DNA of 35,589 bases from Verrucomicrobiaceae bacterium (GTDB taxonomy: Bacteria > Verrucomicrobiota > Verrucomicrobiia > Verrucomicrobiales > DEV007): contig JAACDM010000110.1 in assembly GCA_009936795.1 (NCBI GenBank), positions 1 to 35,589 on the forward strand, in the 5' to 3' direction. The notes below the pieces were generated by a model, which made no database searches, had not been told where the DNA came from, and saw nothing but the letters and a program-made list of their open reading frames with translations. This document shows positions 4,336 through 24,030 of this stretch, one piece after another (positions within the stretch are counted from its first letter, which is position 1; every line of letters starts with the position of its first letter). The translations under genes and the position numbers were made by a program.

Positions 4336-5541
4336 CTACCGCAAGTCTGCGCAGACAACGTCACCTCTATTGTTCTTTACAAAGAGCCTTCCATCCGAAA
4401 GGACTGGCTTTACCCAGCAGCGCTTGCTCAGCAACTGAGCCTGCGAAATCGGCGTGTAGCGATTTCCCGTGGCTTCAGCGACGACCAGGTTTCCTTTATC
4501 ACTAAGAGCTAGCAACTTACCCCCTGCCAATGTAAGGGTCCCCATACCAAAGCCCTTCTGAGCCCACTGCGTCTTACCATCTTTTAACGACACACAGATG
4601 AGCTGTCCATTGGTATCGCCACACACGGCGAAGACGTGTCCATTGTAAACAACACAGCTGCTCATTTTCGTTTTGATGTCCTCGTTGGTCCAAAGCTTCC
4701 TTGGCTTGCCGCTACTCAAGTCGAACAGAGCTACCCGTCCATCATTGTAGCCACTCGAAACGATGAGTTGATTGTTTGGCAGCGGCACTGGAGAAGACGC
4801 ATTCACATCGTAAGAAGTCTTCCAGGGCACTTCCCACAAACGCCTGCCGGTTTTCAAATCGTGAGCCACCAACGCCGTTCCCTTAAAGACAAGAACGGCG
4901 TCCTTACCTCTTAGTTTGATCGGCGTTGGCGTGGAATAGCCAGCATTCTCGTCACCATTGCCCCAGACTTTCCTGCCGCTGTTCTTGTTTAGCGCGAGAG
5001 TTGAATTCCCCTTGCCGCCATTGTCCAAGATCAAGAGATCTCCAACAACCAGTGGAGACGACGAGTATTTCCACCTTGATAGCTTGCCACCAAATTTTTC
5101 TATCAAATGCGTTTTCCAAATCACTTTACCATTCTCAAGGGAAAGGCACTGGAGCTGTCCATCGTAGCTTAAGTTGTAGACACGATCACCATGAATCGTC
5201 GGTGTGGCGGCCGTACCTCCGTCAAACATCCGCTTTTCGAACTCGCAATCAAACGTGTTCTTCCATAGCGCTTTTCCCGAGTCCGCATCGAAACAGAAGA
5301 CGGTTTCCTTGTCACCATTCGCACCCGAGGTAATGACGCGTTTTCCACTCACTACGAAGCTCGCTGCACCCGTGCCGACCTTGGCTTTCCAAGCGATCTT
5401 GGGCCCATCATCGCCCCAATCGGCTTTCCAGCCCGTCTCGGAAGACGCTCCGTTAAAATTTGGGCCCGCAAAGAATGGCCATTCGCTAGCCGCGAGTGGT
5501 GAGACAAGAAGTGTCGAAGCAAGTAAGAGAATCCGTTTCAT
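4336..5541 (-). CDS. secreted PQQ-type (BamB-like) beta-propeller protein
   Basis: A 401-residue exported beta-propeller built from PQQ-like repeats. The ATG at 5541 gives MKRILLLASTLLVSPLAASEW, a good signal peptide ending AAS/EWPFFAGPN. An ATG at 5568 would add nine residues and weaken the signal, so 5541 is preferred. Typical repeat signatures recur: CFDADSGKALWKN, CLSLENGKVIWKTH, ALNKNSGRKVWGN, AHDLKTGRRLWEV and CVSLKDGKTQWAQ. No catalytic residues or heme site of PQQ dehydrogenases are seen, so it is a binding or scaffold propeller of the kind common in PVC genomes. It is the first gene of the operon with the protease and pseudoprotease. BamB acts in outer-membrane protein assembly, but calling this gene bamB is not justified by the sequence alone. 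The stop is TAG. Confidence 0.88.
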   Translation of the reverse strand: MKRILLLASTLLVSPLAASEWPFFAGPNFNGASSETGWKADWGDDGPKIAWKAKVGTGAASFVVSGKRVITSGANGDKETVFCFDADSGKALWKNTFDCEFEKRMFDGGTAATPTIHGDRVYNLSYDGQLQCLSLENGKVIWKTHLIEKFGGKLSRWKYSSSPLVVGDLLILDNGGKGNSTLALNKNSGRKVWGNGDENAGYSTPTPIKLRGKDAVLVFKGTALVAHDLKTGRRLWEVPWKTSYDVNASSPVPLPNNQLIVSSGYNDGRVALFDLSSGKPRKLWTNEDIKTKMSSCVVYNGHVFAVCGDTNGQLICVSLKDGKTQWAQKGFGMGTLTLAGGKLLALSDKGNLVVAEATGNRYTPISQAQLLSKRCWVKPVLSDGRLFVKNNRGDVVCADLR

Positions 5542-5577
5542 GAGCGAAGTCTCAAACAGAAACTGCATCAGGGCAAG

Positions 5578-6807
5578 TCAACGACTATGATCTAGAACGT
5601 ATTTCTCCACCAATTCGGCTAAGACCGCCTGTTGCCAAGGCTTCGTCGCACATCGCTTGGCATCGCCCACACTGGCTTGCGCAAAAAACTGGCGCTCATG
5701 GTCCAGGAGAGATCGATCCCTCTGATCTCGCTCACGCATCATCCGTCCCCTATAGAAATGCCTCAGGAAGCGCAGCTCCCCCCACTGCGAGAAAGGCCCC
5801 TCTCCTATCACATCTGCTACTATATCTCAGCGATCGCCCGCAGCGGAGGCATCGGCAATGAGCAACCGGGCAAACGCATTCTGCGGCTCTTGTGGCTCTA
5901 CCTCAGGAAACGCTTCGGGATACTCTTGATACCATCGAATCAACACGTCTCCCCTTCCGATTCGAGTGAGGCCTTCCGCCACCTTTCGAGTTTCGGAACC
6001 GCTTTTGAACTCACAGTTCAGTTTGAGCAACGAAGAGGTCACAGCCCTCTCAACATCCGGCCTAGCGGCACGACTCGCTTCCAGCGCCCTCAGAAACGAC
6101 GGATGCACCGTATCAGCCGACTCAATATGGATCTGTAACCAACCCGTCAACTCCACGATCGATCTTGGCCAAGGCTTCGCGGTAAAAGACGTCAACATGA
6201 GGGTCATATCCATGGCAGAGGCGTCTGCCGAGTGCGAACTGCCTTCCCCTTCTGCGGCATTTCCGAGCCCCAACCGATGCCTTTCCGGATAATCAACTCC
6301 CGCTCTTAACGAAGCATACGCGAGGCTCAATAACGTCTCGGGATTTGCAGGCCTCAAGTCGGCCAGAGCCACGGTGTGCTGCAGAAAGATCTGAGGACCG
6401 TTGCGAAACAAATACAGCCCCATCTCGTGATAACTGAGAGCATCCACGCTACGCCCAGGCATCAATTTCGAGTAGGAATCCCGGGCACGTAGCTCAACTC
6501 CCAATTCGATCGCTTTGAGAGTACTGATAAGCGGATCGCCGGATACCAGTTCGAGCACGCGAGGGTCGCGCCTCGCTTCATAAGCCTGCATGAGAATCTC
6601 TCTCGCCGCAGCATCATCGGAGTCACCGGCAAAGGCAGAACGCGCCATGATTACGGCACCATCGGGATCGCCACCGGCAAGAAACTGTTCCGCGTGGGAA
6701 AATAGGCAATCTGTTTTCTAATCATTATAGTAAGCTAGGCAAGCGCCTACCAAGACCACTAACGACCAAATCCCAGGTTTACTTATTGCTAGTCTAACGA
6801 GTCGCAT
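5578..6807 (-). pseudogene. TPR protein of the exosortase locus, two nonsense codons
   Basis: One continuous frame of 410 codons runs from ATG 6807 to TGA 5578, interrupted only by TAG at 6718-6720 and TGA at 5827-5829. The N terminus (MRLVRLAISKPG, then IWSLVVLVGACLAYY) is a membrane anchor. After the TAG it continues SHAEQFLAGGDPDGAVIMAR and AAAREILMQAYEARRD, typical of helical TPR-type repeats, and ends with more helical sequence. The start overlaps the end of the EpsI-like gene by 14 bp, so this is the original operon order. The largest remaining open piece (ATG 6648 to 5827, 273 residues) lacks the membrane anchor, so any product would stay in the cytoplasm. Such TPR proteins accompany exosortases and EpsI in several phyla. 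No frameshift is needed to read the full ancestral protein. Confidence 0.8.
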
Positions 6808-7426
6808 AAGTCGCCCCGTTTGATGGTTGACGATGTACTGGGTGGATTGTTCGGCGAACAAAAGCTGCCATTTCGCAGTCAGCAGCCTCTAATGACGTGT
6901 CCCAAAAACCCACCTCGATCAAACGACGGCCTTGGTTGCCCTCACCACGCCACGCCCGCATCAACCGCTCTCGACGATAAACGCTCGAGCCCTCTCGCAG
7001 GGCTCCTTTCCGCCCGTCGCTTGACCACACGCCAAAGTAAACAATGACATCCGTATCCTGCCTAACAAACTGGTATCTTCGAAACTCGTAATTCGATTCA
7101 CCGACCCGGAAATTCTGAAACAAGGGACCTCCTTGCAACTCGAATCCCGCTCCCTCCAAACATATTTCAGGTTGATGACCGCGAACAGTCAACACCGCCG
7201 GGTTTTCCGAAGACCATTGGATGTAGTGAGCCACGCGATGACTTTCTTCAGGCCCCCGCCACTCGGTTGAATGGGTGAAATCAACCCCCATCTGCCTCGC
7301 CCAGCTCTTTGGAAAGGGAACGGTCCGATAAACCAACTCGTCTGTCGGCGATTGAAACGTCCATTCATCTATCTTGGCTGGAACAGATCCCCTGCTGAAC
7401 CACACTACGCGTGCTCCCTCCATCAT
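6794..7426 (-). CDS. EpsI/DUF3485 exosortase-associated protein, N terminus damaged
   Basis: The diagnostic block of EpsI-type proteins, HQPEICLEGAGFEL, is present (about residues 84-97), followed by a conserved body (YQFVRQDTDVIVYFGVW) and a basic C terminus. In exosortase systems this protein accompanies the transpeptidase-like enzyme, but its exact role is unknown. The first good start is ATG 7426. The same frame is open upstream to 7468 and encodes GWLFGGLAVVLLMMEGARV, the expected N-terminal membrane helix, which the Met start cuts in half. Just upstream is TAA (7469-7471), preceded in frame by ATG 7483 (MPLV). Either the TAA is a nonsense mutation at codon 5 of the old gene, or the exosortase ended there and this gene used a non-ATG start. 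The domain is intact, but proper membrane insertion is doubtful. Confidence 0.7.
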   Translation of the reverse strand: MMEGARVVWFSRGSVPAKIDEWTFQSPTDELVYRTVPFPKSWARQMGVDFTHSTEWRGPEESHRVAHYIQWSSENPAVLTVRGHQPEICLEGAGFELQGGPLFQNFRVGESNYEFRRYQFVRQDTDVIVYFGVWSSDGRKGALREGSSVYRRERLMRAWRGEGNQGRRLIEVGFWDTSLEAADCEMAAFVRRTIHPVHRQPSNGATYATR

Positions 7427-7468
7427 TAAAAGGACAACAGCAAGACCTCCAAACAGCCATCCATGGAG

Positions 7469-8396
7469 TTAAACGAGTGGCATCTGCGGCCAACAAAATT
7501 CCCGTGAGGCTGGGCGAGGTTTCCTTGCAACACCATCTCTCCATTTCAGCACCACACACAGCACTAAAGTCAACGTTAGTATCTGTGCAATCGATCCGGC
7601 CAACTGATGATGCCGATCGAAGAGATCACGCCCACCGTGTTCGGCAAGCATGGCAAGCGACACGCTACGAATGCTGTTCATCACAACAGCCACCACCGCC
7701 GCTAGGAACAGGTAGGCTGCTCTCCCCAGAACAGGCAACCGATGAAGTTCTCCCCAGAACAACGCAGCGGCTAGACAAAGATGCAGCGACCGTATCCCCG
7801 TACCTCAATCTTCAATGCCGAGGACAGTATGCCGAAGAGTGATCATATCACGTCCGACGCGTTCAGCCGCAATACCACCAAGATGCAAGACCTCCAAGGT
7901 GACACCTTGGTCGTCAGTTGCTTGAGAGAATCAATCAGGTAGTACTCGATAGCATATGGAAGAGGCACCGCCGCCGCCATGATCAGAAACGGCGTTGCAT
8001 ACTGGGTGACGGCCTTCCATCCACCTAGCGCGTGGAGAATCACTACCGTAAGAGCGCTAGCCAGAACAAAGGTAACCCAGCTTATGAGATGCCAGTCCAC
8101 ATTGGCATGCCCAATCAGTCTCACCGGTAGCCAAGCGAGACGGACACCAAAAAGCACCGCGCAGTGTCCCCAAGAAACCATAGGCCGCCCCGGCAAAGGC
8201 TCCCAAGATGTTGGCGAAACCGCAGCCTCAACAGGAGCAACAACACGATTGGCATCAGCCACCCAAATTGATACTCCGGATTGTAACGCCATTCAACGGC
8301 CAAGTGCGTGATGCAGGCGATCTATGCCACCAGGATCAGCAGAGCACCGCCAATATGCTTGGCGTGCCATTCGCTAGGATGAGGATGGGCATTCAT
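7469..8396 (-). pseudogene. exosortase, inactivated (2 frameshifts, 2 stops, catalytic Cys lost)
   Basis: Multi-membrane cysteine transpeptidase that would cleave PEP-CTERM sorting signals. The start ATG 8396 overlaps the PEP-CTERM gene stop as ATGA. The frame reads GALLILVA, TAG (8322-8324), IACITHLAVEWRYNPEYQFG, the typical exosortase N terminus. It then shifts near 8220 to a frame with FLIMAAAVPLPYAIEYYLI, the conserved FP-to-PLP segment, and shifts again near 7900. The third frame contains VLGIED, TGA (7805-7807), GTGIRSLHL. The family motif here is A-C-S-G-I-R-S: the Ala codon is a stop, the catalytic Cys is Gly (GGT 7802-7804) and the Ser is Thr. The conserved Arg region (MNSIRSVSLAM) and the His region (RHHQLAG) follow. 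This enzyme cannot function even if read through. Confidence 0.88.
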
Positions 8397-9358
8397 ACTC
8401 TTTCCCGGCTACGACGCTGACGGTGTAATAGCACTGAAAACCCGAGCACTAGTGATAGGACAACAAAGCCATTCGTCGGCTCAGGGCTCGGCACGACGGT
8501 GAGCGCTGCATTTGTAAGCATCGTGCTCCGAAAGGCCGCCCAGGATGGAAGCAGATCCAGGCCCGTTCTGGGACCGCTATCCGCAGCCGAGATTTCATAC
8601 CCATAAACACGGTCCCCTACATTGATTCTAAACTGGTGAAACGTTAGCAAGAGACCTCCTATGTTTTGAACCTGATCGATGTCGTCTGGCTGATCGAATG
8701 GACCGCCCCTGTCATTCGTCTCCGAATCCCAAAGAGCATGGTGCATGCTGGTGACGCCACTTCCAAAGGGATCCCCATCTCCAATCGTTACTTCTTAGGA
8801 ATAAGTTAGTGCTTTCCCTACTCCATCCACACTCATGACCAATCGCATGTTGATATTCCTATCATTCGCCTAACTTTCAATAATAGAGACGCCAGCCTCT
8901 TTCAGCTCTAACGGATCATTTAATTGCACGCCGGTCATACTTTTGAATCGCACGGCATCCAGGGTGCGATTGAAGGTATCGTCAGAGCCATAATTAATTC
9001 GAAGCGGCGTGGAAAACATGTCGGCCAGATCGACCAACGCATTCCCCGTGTAGCCCGTATCGTTGCCGTTGCTTGGCATATCATTCCGCTCATACCAAAC
9101 ACGGGTCTCCACTGGGTTCGCCTTGAAGTCGAAGTCGACCTAAGGAAATTCAACCAACGGTTCGTAGGTCGATCCTCCTGCCGTAAAGGTCGTTACGACC
9201 GTGACATCGTTTTCATACCGATAGCCATTATTTGGATCAATACTCGGGGGCCCTACAGTTGTGCTCGTGGTGATCGAATCCCAAGACACCAGGGCAGCTC
9301 GCGCCAAAGGACTAGCCAGAAGCAATCCCCAAATGATCAGCGACCTGAGGGCCTGCAT
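8393..9358 (-). pseudogene. PEP-CTERM surface/secreted protein with three in-frame stops
   Basis: A 322-codon frame from ATG 9358 to TGA 8393, broken only by TAG 9140-9142, TAG 8870-8872 and TAA 8795-8797, without any frameshift. The N terminus (MQALRSLIIWGLLLASPLARAA) is a signal peptide. The body is beta-rich and unidentified (for example NGYRYENDVTVVTTF and GNALVDLADMFSTPLRINY). The C terminus carries the sorting signal: PSPEPTNG, a hydrophobic helix FVVLSLVLGFSVLL, and a basic end HRQRRSRERV. This is the natural substrate type of the exosortase that follows with a 4-bp overlap. No part of the remaining open pieces contains both the export signal and the sorting signal, so no sorted product can be made. 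Confidence 0.82.
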
Positions 9359-9527: not shown

Positions 9528-10110
9528 TCAAAGCAAGTCGCTTTGAGGGCCTTTCTGAACGATTCTCGACCGATAAGAGGTGCGAGGCTCCATGGGCGCA
9601 TTGTCTGTGACAATAATCTTGGTCAGGTCGCTAGGATCAACCTGAGCCTCGACGTTGCTAGCGGCGGTTTCCCTTTGACCGTCATAGCGATAGATCTCCG
9701 TATAGCCTCTCACCGTGTTGCTTCGCTCCACAATCCAGCAAATCCCTGTGACGCCAGGCCTGTAGCCGAAAGTAAACTCAACGCCACCTCGATCATTTGG
9801 TTGCAGGATAGGCTTGCGGTTGGAATTCGTAGCCGTTCGGATCGGTGTCGTCATGATCAGCCCCAGTGAAAGACGCACTACCGCCCACTAACACTTACTT
9901 TAAGCACAAACCAAAGGAGTTTTCACTCTCCCTCTCTACCGCCCCAATGGCTGCACGGTGACCGATGGGCCGGGGAAAACCGTGCTGGTCCTTCGAATGA
10001 GGGCTTATGCCACCGGCATCGATGACCAGGCCACCAGCAAGATAACGTCTTGTTAGGGTTGGACCTCCATAGTCACCTAGACTTTTCAGCATCGGATCAG
10101 GCACTACCAG
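9528..10110 (-). pseudogene. C-terminal fragment of a beta-helix (choice-of-anchor Q) secreted protein
   Basis: On the minus strand the frame ending at TAA 9895 contains DPMLKSLGDYGGPTLT, then LVIDAGG, DQHGFPRPIG and AAIGAVE. This is the classic end of right-handed beta-helix proteins (LGDYGGPT, SPAIDAG, DQRGFPR, DIGAVE). The same frame continues past the TAA with TGADHDDTDPNGYEF, a D/N-rich linker. It then shifts to the frame ending at 9528, which has GVEFTFGYRPGVTGICWIVE and later TSYRSRIVQK, a typical terminal beta-sandwich module of verrucomicrobial secreted proteins. The beta-helix itself is missing: upstream the frame enters the DUF6288-like relic. The fragment therefore looks like the 3' end of a gene whose 5' part was deleted, joining it to its neighbour near 10.1-10.4 kb. 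Confidence 0.68.
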
Positions 10111-11874
10111 AATGTGTGGCCCTGCCGCAATTCTGGAGGCTTGGAAGCTGGACAAGCAATGAACGCCTTGGGTCACAAGCGTTGCCCCATCGTTGCTATG
10201 CAGAACCACGGAGTTTCCTGAATTGAGGGAAAGGCCGACACGTGCCGCGCTTCCCGCTCCGTGAAGGACGCCGTTTACCGTCACGGCGACCTCGCCAAAA
10301 TTAGCTGCGGAAACTAACGTCCCCACTGTTTTCACAATGTCAGTTTCTTCGTCAAGGATCGACACTTTGAGGTCGCCCGGTATCCACGTCGGGTCCACCA
10401 TCTGCGCATATACCAACATATTCTTTTTAGCTAATGACAGTATCAACGCCATGACACTGGAGGCCACGAATCGCGGGTTGGCGTTGTAGATGGCATTGTC
10501 CCGGTTGGACTGATAGTAGAAGGATCCATCCGTTCATTGGGAGAGCGAGAACCACCACTAGTTGTTATCCAACAATTGACTGAAACTCCCCGGATCGAAC
10601 TGAGCGTCCATCGCCGCGTAAGCCATAGCCATCGTCGGCGAGCCGAGGGTTTCGGGAAACGTTGAGGATGAGTCCCCATGAAGCGTGCGTAGTTCAGCGC
10701 GCGGGCTCGATAAATCGGGTGCGAGTAAGGACTCATCCGATAGGCGATGGATGTCGCACCGGTGCGCCCGAGATCACTCCAGGCATCCGGATTGCCTCCC
10801 GACCCATCCTAATCGGCATACCACACATAGTTGTTTGATCCAGTGCCCTTGACGAGGAATTCGTAGGCGGCATCTAGGCGGGTGCGATCGACTGTCACTC
10901 CAACACGATCCATGAGGGCGAGTGCCAGAGTTCCCTGACCCGTGGCCATGCAGATGGGGCCGTAGCCTTCGAAACAGGGATTGTGTCTCCAGCCGTCAAA
11001 ACCAAATTTCGTCGGATCGACGTCGTGGGTTTGGGGCAGCACCAACTGAGAGATGTCCTTGTACTGGCTGTCGATGAGGTAGGTGTAGAGGGTTTGCAGT
11101 TTGATCAAGACCCAGGGTTTGCTCGTCTTATTTTAGTATTCTGATAGATGAATCGCGGCCGTGAAGTATTTCCAGTGATGGAGGCCGTGCTGTGGAATGG
11201 CCGCGTTGGTCTGGTTGTCGTAGTAAGCGGCAAGATTGTCAGCTGCGGTTATACTTGCTGTGCTGCTGTCGGCCAGCAAGGCGAGCCACACAAAGATGCT
11301 ATTCTCGTGGCCGCCCTGTCCCTCCCAAGTCCCATCATTCAATTGAGAAGTTTGCAGGTAGGTTAGTAATTCGGCGAGGATGAGAGTAGATTTCGGGCAG
11401 CTGTCCGAAAAGGTTGGCGAGAACCTCCCGGTAGACCGTTCCCACATCGAGCGTGACGTTCTGCGAGCTCATTCCACGGTTGAAAAGACACGTCGAGGAG
11501 ACCATCGGTAGACTGAATCGTGTCCAGAGCCACTCTGAATTCACTGATCGGTCCTTGCGCTCTAAAAACCTCTGGGCTGTAACCGCTCTAATGGTCCTCA
11601 GTAAACGCCTGACCCTCCACTCCGGTGATCACGTCCTCTGCTTACAGGAGTCCATTAGCAGGTGATCCGGAAAAAACATATTTCACCACCAGCGTTCGGG
11701 GCGAGCTACACACTCAAACCGGTGATGCCGAGGTTGTAAAACCAGCTGGGAACCACGGCATCGCGCCCGACACTCGTCGTCGCCGACCACGAAGAGCCAC
11801 TCTCAACATTGTAAGCGACCTGTGCGCGGATGCTGCCGCATAGCACCATACCTGCGAGTAAAATTGGTTATCAT
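10111..11874 (-). pseudogene. DUF6288-like secreted protein (PDZ-like plus alpha/alpha toroid), decayed
   Basis: Successive frames give the ordered blocks of this family. The N-terminal signal (LLAGMVLCGSIRAQ) is one base out of frame with ATG 11874. Then come VAYNVESGSSWSATTSVG and VVPSWFYNLGITGLSV, a PDZ-like stretch (VFSGSPANGLL, EDVITGVEGQAF), DSCPKSTLILAELLTYL, WRHNPCFEGYGPICM and GTGSNNYVWYAD, then SDLGRTGATSIAYRMSPY. The end reads WWFSLSQ, a stop, TDGSFYYQSNRDNA and ASSVMALILSL. In-frame stops include TAG 11706, TAA 11642, TAG 11588, TAA 11133, TAG 10809, TAG 10558 and TGA 10534 (lowest coordinate of each). There are frameshifts in the signal peptide, near 11700, near 11440 and near 10670. 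The toroid fold is that of terpene-cyclase-like helical barrels; the function of the family is unknown. The family name is from memory and should be confirmed by search. Confidence 0.7.
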
Positions 11875-11946: not shown

Positions 11947-13035
11947 TCACGGTCTCTCTGTAGCTTGGGGCTCGTCAGAATCTGAGAAGGGCTTGATAGA
12001 GATTGTGACAGGCGAGCCCTTGGCAGGAAGCGGACCACGGTTGACAAACCAGATGTCGTCACGGATCCGCGACTGACCGGGATGGTTCACCATGGCACTG
12101 GGATCCGAGAAAACCGCCGCGATATCGCCAGTTTTCCCGGCACGGAATCCAGTCTCGGTGACGACCGAGCCAGTGTATAGCCACGGGCCAGCAGCCATCG
12201 GCTTTCCGGTTTCTTCGTTAATGATCAACTCATTCATCGGGGACCTCATCCGCCTACCTTCGGTGATCCATGCTGCAGAGATATCGAGACGAGCGAGCGA
12301 GCGTACGTTCTCCGACACCGTGGGGTATTTACCAGTCGGCCGGTGATCAGGTGTCCGGATTTCAAACAGCTCAGGCGACGGTTCGTAGCCGAGTAGAAGG
12401 AAGGCCACGTTGAGGTCGATCGGCCGAATACGGCACGAGAAGAGCGCCTCGTGTGTCTTGCCTCTACGAGTGACCAACAAATACTCAATGGGGCCATCAA
12501 TTTGGTTCACAGAGGCCTCAAAAACGATTTCCCGGGATGGCTTGTGAATCGTGATATTGCCTACTTCATAGGTGTGTATATCGATCTTGGTGACTTTCCC
12601 CGCGGCAGTATGTTCAGCCGGGGCCTCTGCTACAAGCGTCGTGGTGCGCTTCGTGCCGTGAACTGACTTCCTAAAGTAGAGTCTACCGTTGATCCGAATG
12701 GTCCGCACGGCCGACTCACCCGGACGGCCCTCGAATTGCAACTGGATGTCAGGCTTGCCCTCGGCCGCTTCCAGCAGGCCATTCGCGATATTCGGCGTCA
12801 GGTCCCACGACGTTCCACTATCATTGGTCCAGCGGAAACGCATCGCTTCGGTTGGATGGCGTGTGATGTCGCCTCGATCCTTACCCGTGTCTGGCAAGGC
12901 GGTTTCGTATCGGCCCAAAAGCGTCCCCTCGTTGGCCGACAACGGCAACGTACCCACGATCAGGAGCAGCACGCCGAAGATCAATCGACGAAGCCGAACG
13001 AATCTTAAGGGTATGTGAGATCGAATACGGGACAT
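11947..13035 (-). CDS. secreted YdjY-like domain protein
   Basis: An intact 362-residue frame starting MSRIRSHIPLRFVRLRRL followed by IFGVLLLIVGTLPLSANEG, a long signal peptide with a basic n-region. The C-terminal half has the YdjY-type pattern: REIVFEASVNQIDGPIEYLL, then GKTHEALFSCRIRPIDLNVA and FLLLGYEP. The first half is beta-rich (GRYETALPD, FRWTNDSGTSWDL). The biochemical role of YdjY domains is not established. The gene lies 72 bp upstream of the decayed DUF6288-like gene on the same strand, so the two may have formed an operon; this partner has survived. No stop or frameshift is seen, and the end (DEPQATERP) is clean. Alternative start codons within the signal peptide would shorten it implausibly. 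Confidence 0.78.
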   Translation of the reverse strand: MSRIRSHIPLRFVRLRRLIFGVLLLIVGTLPLSANEGTLLGRYETALPDTGKDRGDITRHPTEAMRFRWTNDSGTSWDLTPNIANGLLEAAEGKPDIQLQFEGRPGESAVRTIRINGRLYFRKSVHGTKRTTTLVAEAPAEHTAAGKVTKIDIHTYEVGNITIHKPSREIVFEASVNQIDGPIEYLLVTRRGKTHEALFSCRIRPIDLNVAFLLLGYEPSPELFEIRTPDHRPTGKYPTVSENVRSLARLDISAAWITEGRRMRSPMNELIINEETGKPMAAGPWLYTGSVVTETGFRAGKTGDIAAVFSDPSAMVNHPGQSRIRDDIWFVNRGPLPAKGSPVTISIKPFSDSDEPQATERP

Positions 13036-23034: not shown

Positions 23035-23850
23035 TTACTTCGCCTCAAAACTCGTTTCACCAGCACAATGTTCTTACTTTCACTCAAACCCGCATTGAAG
23101 CTGATTGAATCAACATCCTCAACAATTTGACGCCCATCATGCCGCCATACAAGCCCCCCGGCTGCAACCACTACTAGAACGTCAGCGATCACGATCACCT
23201 GCTTCCCCCAATCCCCAGAAACGACGTTGAGCCAGTAACCATCGAGGGCTGACATTTCGACAAGATACGAGCAAAAAGCGCGGGCAATGGGGGTGGCACC
23301 CATTGCCTCGCTAACAAATCAGCATGCAATGCCATCGAACTCGTGATTCCCATTGCGGCCAGCTCCTTTCGCAGCCGTTCCAGGGCACGCGAGACACGCT
23401 TCTGTGCTGTATCTTCGCTGATCGAACGAGTTTCGTCTATAGTCCGAATACTCAGCTGTTCGAAAAAGCGAGTGATGACCAAATCTCTATCAGACGCTGA
23501 CAATCCTAACAGCAATCTTGGTAGAATGTCCGAAAGTCCATCTGCATTAGCATCTGTTTCGTCCATGGCAGTGGTAGCATAATTTGTCTCTCCTTTGGCC
23601 CTTCTCCGTTCACTTCGTGCCAATCTCGACGCCGGGTGAAAGGCATGACGATAAAGCCAAGCGTGCAATGAGGAATATCCTTCGCTAGTGTCGGCGCCTT
23701 CTCTGCAAGGCCCCTTAAGACAAGCTGTGCGGCATCTTCTTCCAGTTGCTGATCGCCTCCCAAACACGTAAGAGCCGCCGCCATCACCACTGGGAGATAT
23801 CGATCCAGTAAAAGACGAAACTGGGCAAGAAGGTCGGCTGCTTCGGACAT
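23022..23850 (-). pseudogene. ECF-type sigma factor with C-terminal membrane segment, frameshifted
   Basis: The first frame, from ATG 23850 (MSEAADLLAQF), encodes sigma region 2: AALTCLGGDQQLEEDAAQLV and LRGLAEKAPTLAKDI. Near 23670 the coding moves to another frame with AWLYRHAFHPASRLARSERR, then sigma region 4: LSASDRDLVITRFFEQLSIR and SISEDTAQKRVSRALERLRK. Near 23230 it shifts again to a frame encoding VIVIADVLVVVAAGGLVWRH, the membrane helix typical of this verrucomicrobial sigma-factor group, ending at TAG 23022. The two frameshifts, one between regions 2 and 4, abolish function. Its former regulon is unknown; such sigma factors often precede a membrane or secreted partner, which may be the remnant downstream. 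Confidence 0.72.
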
Positions 23851-24030
23851 GGCGGGCAAGACGTGATCTACTAGAAGATCCCCGCTCAAATCTAGAATCA
23901 GACACCTTTCCTACCAGGACACTTGGGATGATCAGAAGGTCAGCCATTTGGCCAGCACCCATAATCTATAAATCAACGCATCATTTTTATTGCTATCACG
24001 GTATTTAGAATAGATCGTTGGCCACAAACG

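Follow-up and report, generated by a model that had tools for sequence, protein, structure and literature searches.

Exosortases share the common motifs C-x-G, N-x-x-R and H-x-x-x-G, as described by Haft et al. (2006, PMC1569441) for the PEP-CTERM/EpsH system (TIGR02602, TIGR02914, PF09721 and PF11984), and the fusion of EpsI to an exosortase has already been described in the same work. Dedicated pairs, in which the enzyme lies beside its only target, have been discussed for sortase, exosortase and rhombosortase (PMC3237569), while XrtD (TIGR04152) represents a fused exosortase specific to VPLPA-CTERM proteins. Regarding decaying exosortase operons, nothing specific was found among the titles and abstracts that literature searches listed.

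The locus compared here with those systems belongs to a contig of 35.6 kb (C391), analysed over its whole length and called the window below, from a metagenome bin of 6.6 Mb in 739 contigs (genome G000; completeness 95%, contamination 3.3%). It comprises a PEP-CTERM-like substrate gene, a fused exosortase-EpsI gene and a TPR-like gene, which very probably formed a dedicated module and are now recent pseudogenes. Similar to the PEP-CTERM/EpsH system, the exosortase part is followed by EpsI, N-x-x-R and H-x-x-x-G are still readable and a PEP-CTERM-like substrate adjoins the enzyme; however, the gene differs by three stops, two frameshifts and a Gly in place of the catalytic Cys, and exopolysaccharide genes were not recognised beside it. 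As in dedicated pairs, the module has an enzyme and one substrate side by side in overlapping genes, but here there is a third, TPR-like gene, the genome holds other exosortases with many substrates, and the pair is dead.

Organisation of the Locus

The genes of the locus and its flanks described here are on the reverse strand. The substrate pseudogene (8393-9358) has stops at 9140 (TAG), 8870 (TAG) and 8795 (TAA) and no frameshift, and it is joined through an ATGA stop/start overlap (8393-8396) to the fused exosortase-EpsI pseudogene (6794-8396; PF09721 and DUF3485/PF11984), which in turn overlaps by 14 bp (6794-6807) with the TPR-like pseudogene (5578-6807), having stops at 6718 (TAG) and 5827 (TGA) and no frameshift. 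Most of what the initial annotation had claimed for this region was reproduced by translation and codon listing: the eight stops are at their exact coordinates, both overlaps are present, and the PEP-CTERM and TPR frames, with 321 and 409 codons, are free of frameshifts.

Downstream, an intact gene for a PQQ-like repeat protein (4336-5568) was used for synteny and as a clock. Upstream, the next gene is a DUF6288 pseudogene (9552-11864) that has lost about 665 codons by deletion and also contains stops and frameshifts; beyond it lies an intact flanking gene (11947-13035) that is 71% identical to its syntenic counterpart on contig C40 of G001. Elsewhere in the window, a sigma-factor-like coding region (23195-23962) apparently lies in two frames (23509-23910 and 23198-23965) and may be a pseudogene; a tRNA gene searched for within the window was not found.

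The bin is fragmented and partly contaminated, and an individual stop might come from an error or from strain variation; intact genes could then appear broken through faulty sequencing or assembly, or through several strains mixed in the bin. This is highly improbable, as at least ten neighbour genes on the contig are intact, one of more than 1000 codons, and the defects are clustered in 5.6-11.9 kb and comprise three kinds of stop, frameshifts, the large deletion in the DUF6288 gene, and a substitution at the catalytic site.

The Fused Exosortase-EpsI Gene

The enzyme gene has in-frame stops at 8322 (TAG), 7805 (TGA) and 7469 (TAA), as well as two frameshifts, the first lying somewhere within about 8220-8136 and the second at about 7924-7903. 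The exosortase and EpsI parts had been taken as separate genes, and the stop at 7469 as only a possible one. In G011 and G023, from another genus of the same family, the relatives of the enzyme are single intact open reading frames of 549 and 546 aa, with an exosortase domain (PF09721, 120 bits) followed by an EpsI domain (PF11984, 35.3 bits). The window gene aligns without a change of frame between 7903 and 6869, a stretch that includes the TAA; because of this and of the single frame of the relatives, 7469 is an internal stop of one gene. Separate genes are ruled out by these intact fusions, leaving a module of three genes rather than four. The stretch 8396-6794 (534 codons) also has the extent of the fused relatives. 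PF09721 matches two window fragments (profile positions 48-136 and 135-251), and the EpsI part alone scores 19.8 bits, under the cut-off of 26.1.

In a tree from which exosortases failing the active-site motif filter (e.g., C72, C206, C573 and C18) were omitted, the window gene groups with the enzymes of G011 and G023 with a support of 100/99. Among NCBIfam models, XrtD matches the intact relative best, in both halves; however, the 120.5 bits are far under the cut-off of 400, and the tail of the substrate carries SPEP instead of VPLPA. Judged by these sequence comparisons, the clade of fused enzymes is related to XrtD but separate from it and unnamed.

The remains of the C-x-G active site (7787-7813, reverse strand) read ED-stop-G-T-G-I-R, against EEGCTGIR in the relatives, within the sequence IED-stop-GTGIRS. 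The Cys is invariant in seven of the seven aligned relatives (C216 in A1), and the window gene has Gly in that column, so that C-x-G has become G-T-G, while N-x-x-R (NSIR) and H-x-x-x-G (HQLAG) are kept. As the TGA at 7805 is one codon before the Cys column, and the codon usage is still coding-like, it might be thought that the stops are read through or recoded, for instance with this TGA as selenocysteine at the active site, and that the genes still work. Such recoding is ruled out for practical purposes: the stops of the module are four TAG, two TGA and two TAA, two frameshifts interrupt the enzyme gene, and the TGA falls on the position preceding the Cys, whose own column holds Gly. Consequently, no nucleophile would be available even with readthrough at every stop, and the gene reads as the descendant of an exosortase that is no longer a working enzyme.

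The Substrate and TPR-like Genes

The putative substrate was recognised by eye, from a signal peptide and a tail of the form SPEP-TM-RQRR, with the PEP motif, a transmembrane helix and a basic cluster; the tail is not listed by TIGR02595, being below the family HMM, with no HMM match. Its frame of 321 codons has three stops, against 13.6 expected under a first-order Markov model (P about 0.0003), and the TPR-like frame of 409 codons has two, against 17.8 under the same model (P below 0.0004). Both frames have codon scores of 0.21-0.23 per codon, compared to 0.15-0.35 in the intact neighbours. An intact homolog of the substrate, of 300 aa and 32% identity, is found in G244 (contig C17). In G003, a 94-aa open reading frame (C490, 3830-4111, reverse strand) matches only the N-terminal ~70 residues of the substrate homolog (52%) and continues into unrelated sequence; it is possibly a third remnant of the module in the genus.

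With the window protein as the query, the TPR-like family is present in 4 of the 387 genomes of the order: the window genome itself, G002 (as a remnant), G011 and G023. The reciprocal search added marginal matches only (E about 6e-4). The homology between the window protein and that of G011 is 31% over 129 aa; the intact homolog of G011 has one TPR_19 match, and the window protein does not match the PrsT-type TPR protein (TIGR02917).

Both G011 and G023 carry the TPR gene together with the intact fused enzyme. In each, a PEP-CTERM gene is joined by ATGA to the TPR gene immediately after it, which encodes a 600-aa TPR membrane protein (G011:C460, 54-2599; G023:C448, 1-1977), and this two-gene unit is apparently without a name. 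The enzyme is located on a different contig from the PEP-CTERM/TPR pair, and the substrate there is not the same protein as in the window. In addition, these two genomes belong to the same genus and thus count as one independent instance of co-occurrence, not two.

A search for an intact version in sister genomes had been proposed; the fused enzyme and the PEP-CTERM/TPR pair are intact in G011 and G023, of another genus. Within the genus, only remnants of the module were found, from searches covering the genus, the family and the 387 genomes of the order.

Timing of the Decay and Loss in the Nearest Sister

The window genome and its nearest sister, G002, differ in six flanking genes by a dS of 0.94-1.37. 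In G002, only the last ~32-46 codons of the TPR gene are left before the same flanking gene, and the sequence beyond them is unrelated. This remnant has 62% amino acid identity over 32 codons, with a dS of 1.44 and a dN of 0.29, and 50% identity over 46 codons. These values indicate that the TPR gene was under purifying selection after the split of the lineages or shortly before it. Moreover, as the remnant in G002 is coding, the common ancestor already had the gene, and the module was cut away separately in G002. The site of the loss in G002, near the TPR remnant, also bears a tandem repeat of CAGGACAAC units together with unrelated sequence (G002:C113, 137-210).

In the window genome, the eight stops in 3705 bp correspond to ~0.06 substitutions per site since the genes were released from constraint (95% interval 0.026-0.12, n = 8 events), given that ~3.6% of random point changes create a stop and assuming neutral, uniform mutation. 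This distance is roughly one tenth of the window lineage's half of the flank dS. The substrate, enzyme and TPR-like genes have 3, 3 and 2 stops, respectively, compared to 2.0, 3.4 and 2.6 expected by their lengths (p = 0.73, with low power). Such an even spread would be expected from a joint release of the three genes, within the low power of the comparison.

Extent of the Decay and Remaining Display System

The decay extends upstream to ~11.86 kb, into the DUF6288/choice-of-anchor Q gene, which has frameshifts near 10660 and 9835, stops and the ~665-codon deletion at about 10218. Intact versions of this gene are an ortholog of 1474 aa in G001 (C40) and a paralog of 1510 aa in the window genome (C206). 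The early, concerted loss of an operon claimed at first stands in part: the decay is recent and joint, with gene order kept, as seen by the spread of the stops and a distance of ~0.06 against a dS of 0.9-1.4, but it is not specific to the operon, as the DUF6288 gene is broken too.

The same annotation had read the locus as the loss of a display system, which does not hold. The genome keeps two intact exosortases, one on contig C285, close in sequence to its counterpart in G001 and also present in G003, and one on C72. It also has about 30 PEP-CTERM tails, of which almost all lie in open frames. One dedicated side module has been lost, and the display system itself is kept.

The loss affects the fused type of enzyme: only one further fused exosortase-EpsI gene was seen in the window genome, on contig C139 (1424-2166); its exosortase half is gone and a frameshift lies near 1760. 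Intact copies are present in G002 (C365) and G001 (C5).

Considering the neighbouring DUF6288 gene, which is more heavily broken than the module, the region could have decayed as one dispensable island, with no specific release of the sorting module. This possibility, to which we give slightly less than an even chance, would also fit the synteny break at the site: in G001, the upstream flank maps to C40 but the downstream one to C73, neither of them with the module, which was either gained after the split from G001 or lost in G001. On the other hand, the truncation in G002 and the loss of the catalytic half of the C139 gene point to the fused exosortases in particular, suggesting that these enzymes became dispensable. 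The two readings are not exclusive, and decay of a dedicated module is compatible with decay of the region around it. The decay of the module is a gene loss of the ordinary kind, here well resolved.

Proposed Mode of Action and Loss

Based on the families to which these proteins are related, the substrate would have been exported via its signal peptide, with the C-terminal tail keeping it in the inner membrane. Then, the fused exosortase-EpsI would have acted on it at the PEP motif, by cleavage or transfer, through a Cys/Arg/His site, with the TPR-like protein, presumably membrane-anchored, acting as a partner or adaptor. Selection then lapsed on the whole unit, with nonsense codons, frameshifts and the loss of the catalytic Cys accruing at a similar rate. 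The general exosortase has been retained along with its many substrates, and in the nearest sister species the same module has been truncated independently at the same site.

Significance for the Family

In a broader reading, to which we assign even odds, the module is an unnamed three-gene unit of one Verrucomicrobiales family, made up of the substrate, a fused enzyme from a clade that none of the named Xrt families includes, and a TPR protein specific to the family; a single genus would be losing it repeatedly and independently but keeping the general exosortase. What is useful in the finding is the dating, the separate truncation seen in the sister, and the connection of the TPR-like family with the exosortase clade. 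The locus offers a dated example of joint release from constraint for a dedicated exosortase, its substrate and a partner, with the shared system retained. The TPR-like family is tied to the fused exosortase clade by shared distribution and decay, which may give a lead on the role of EpsI and of TPR partners.
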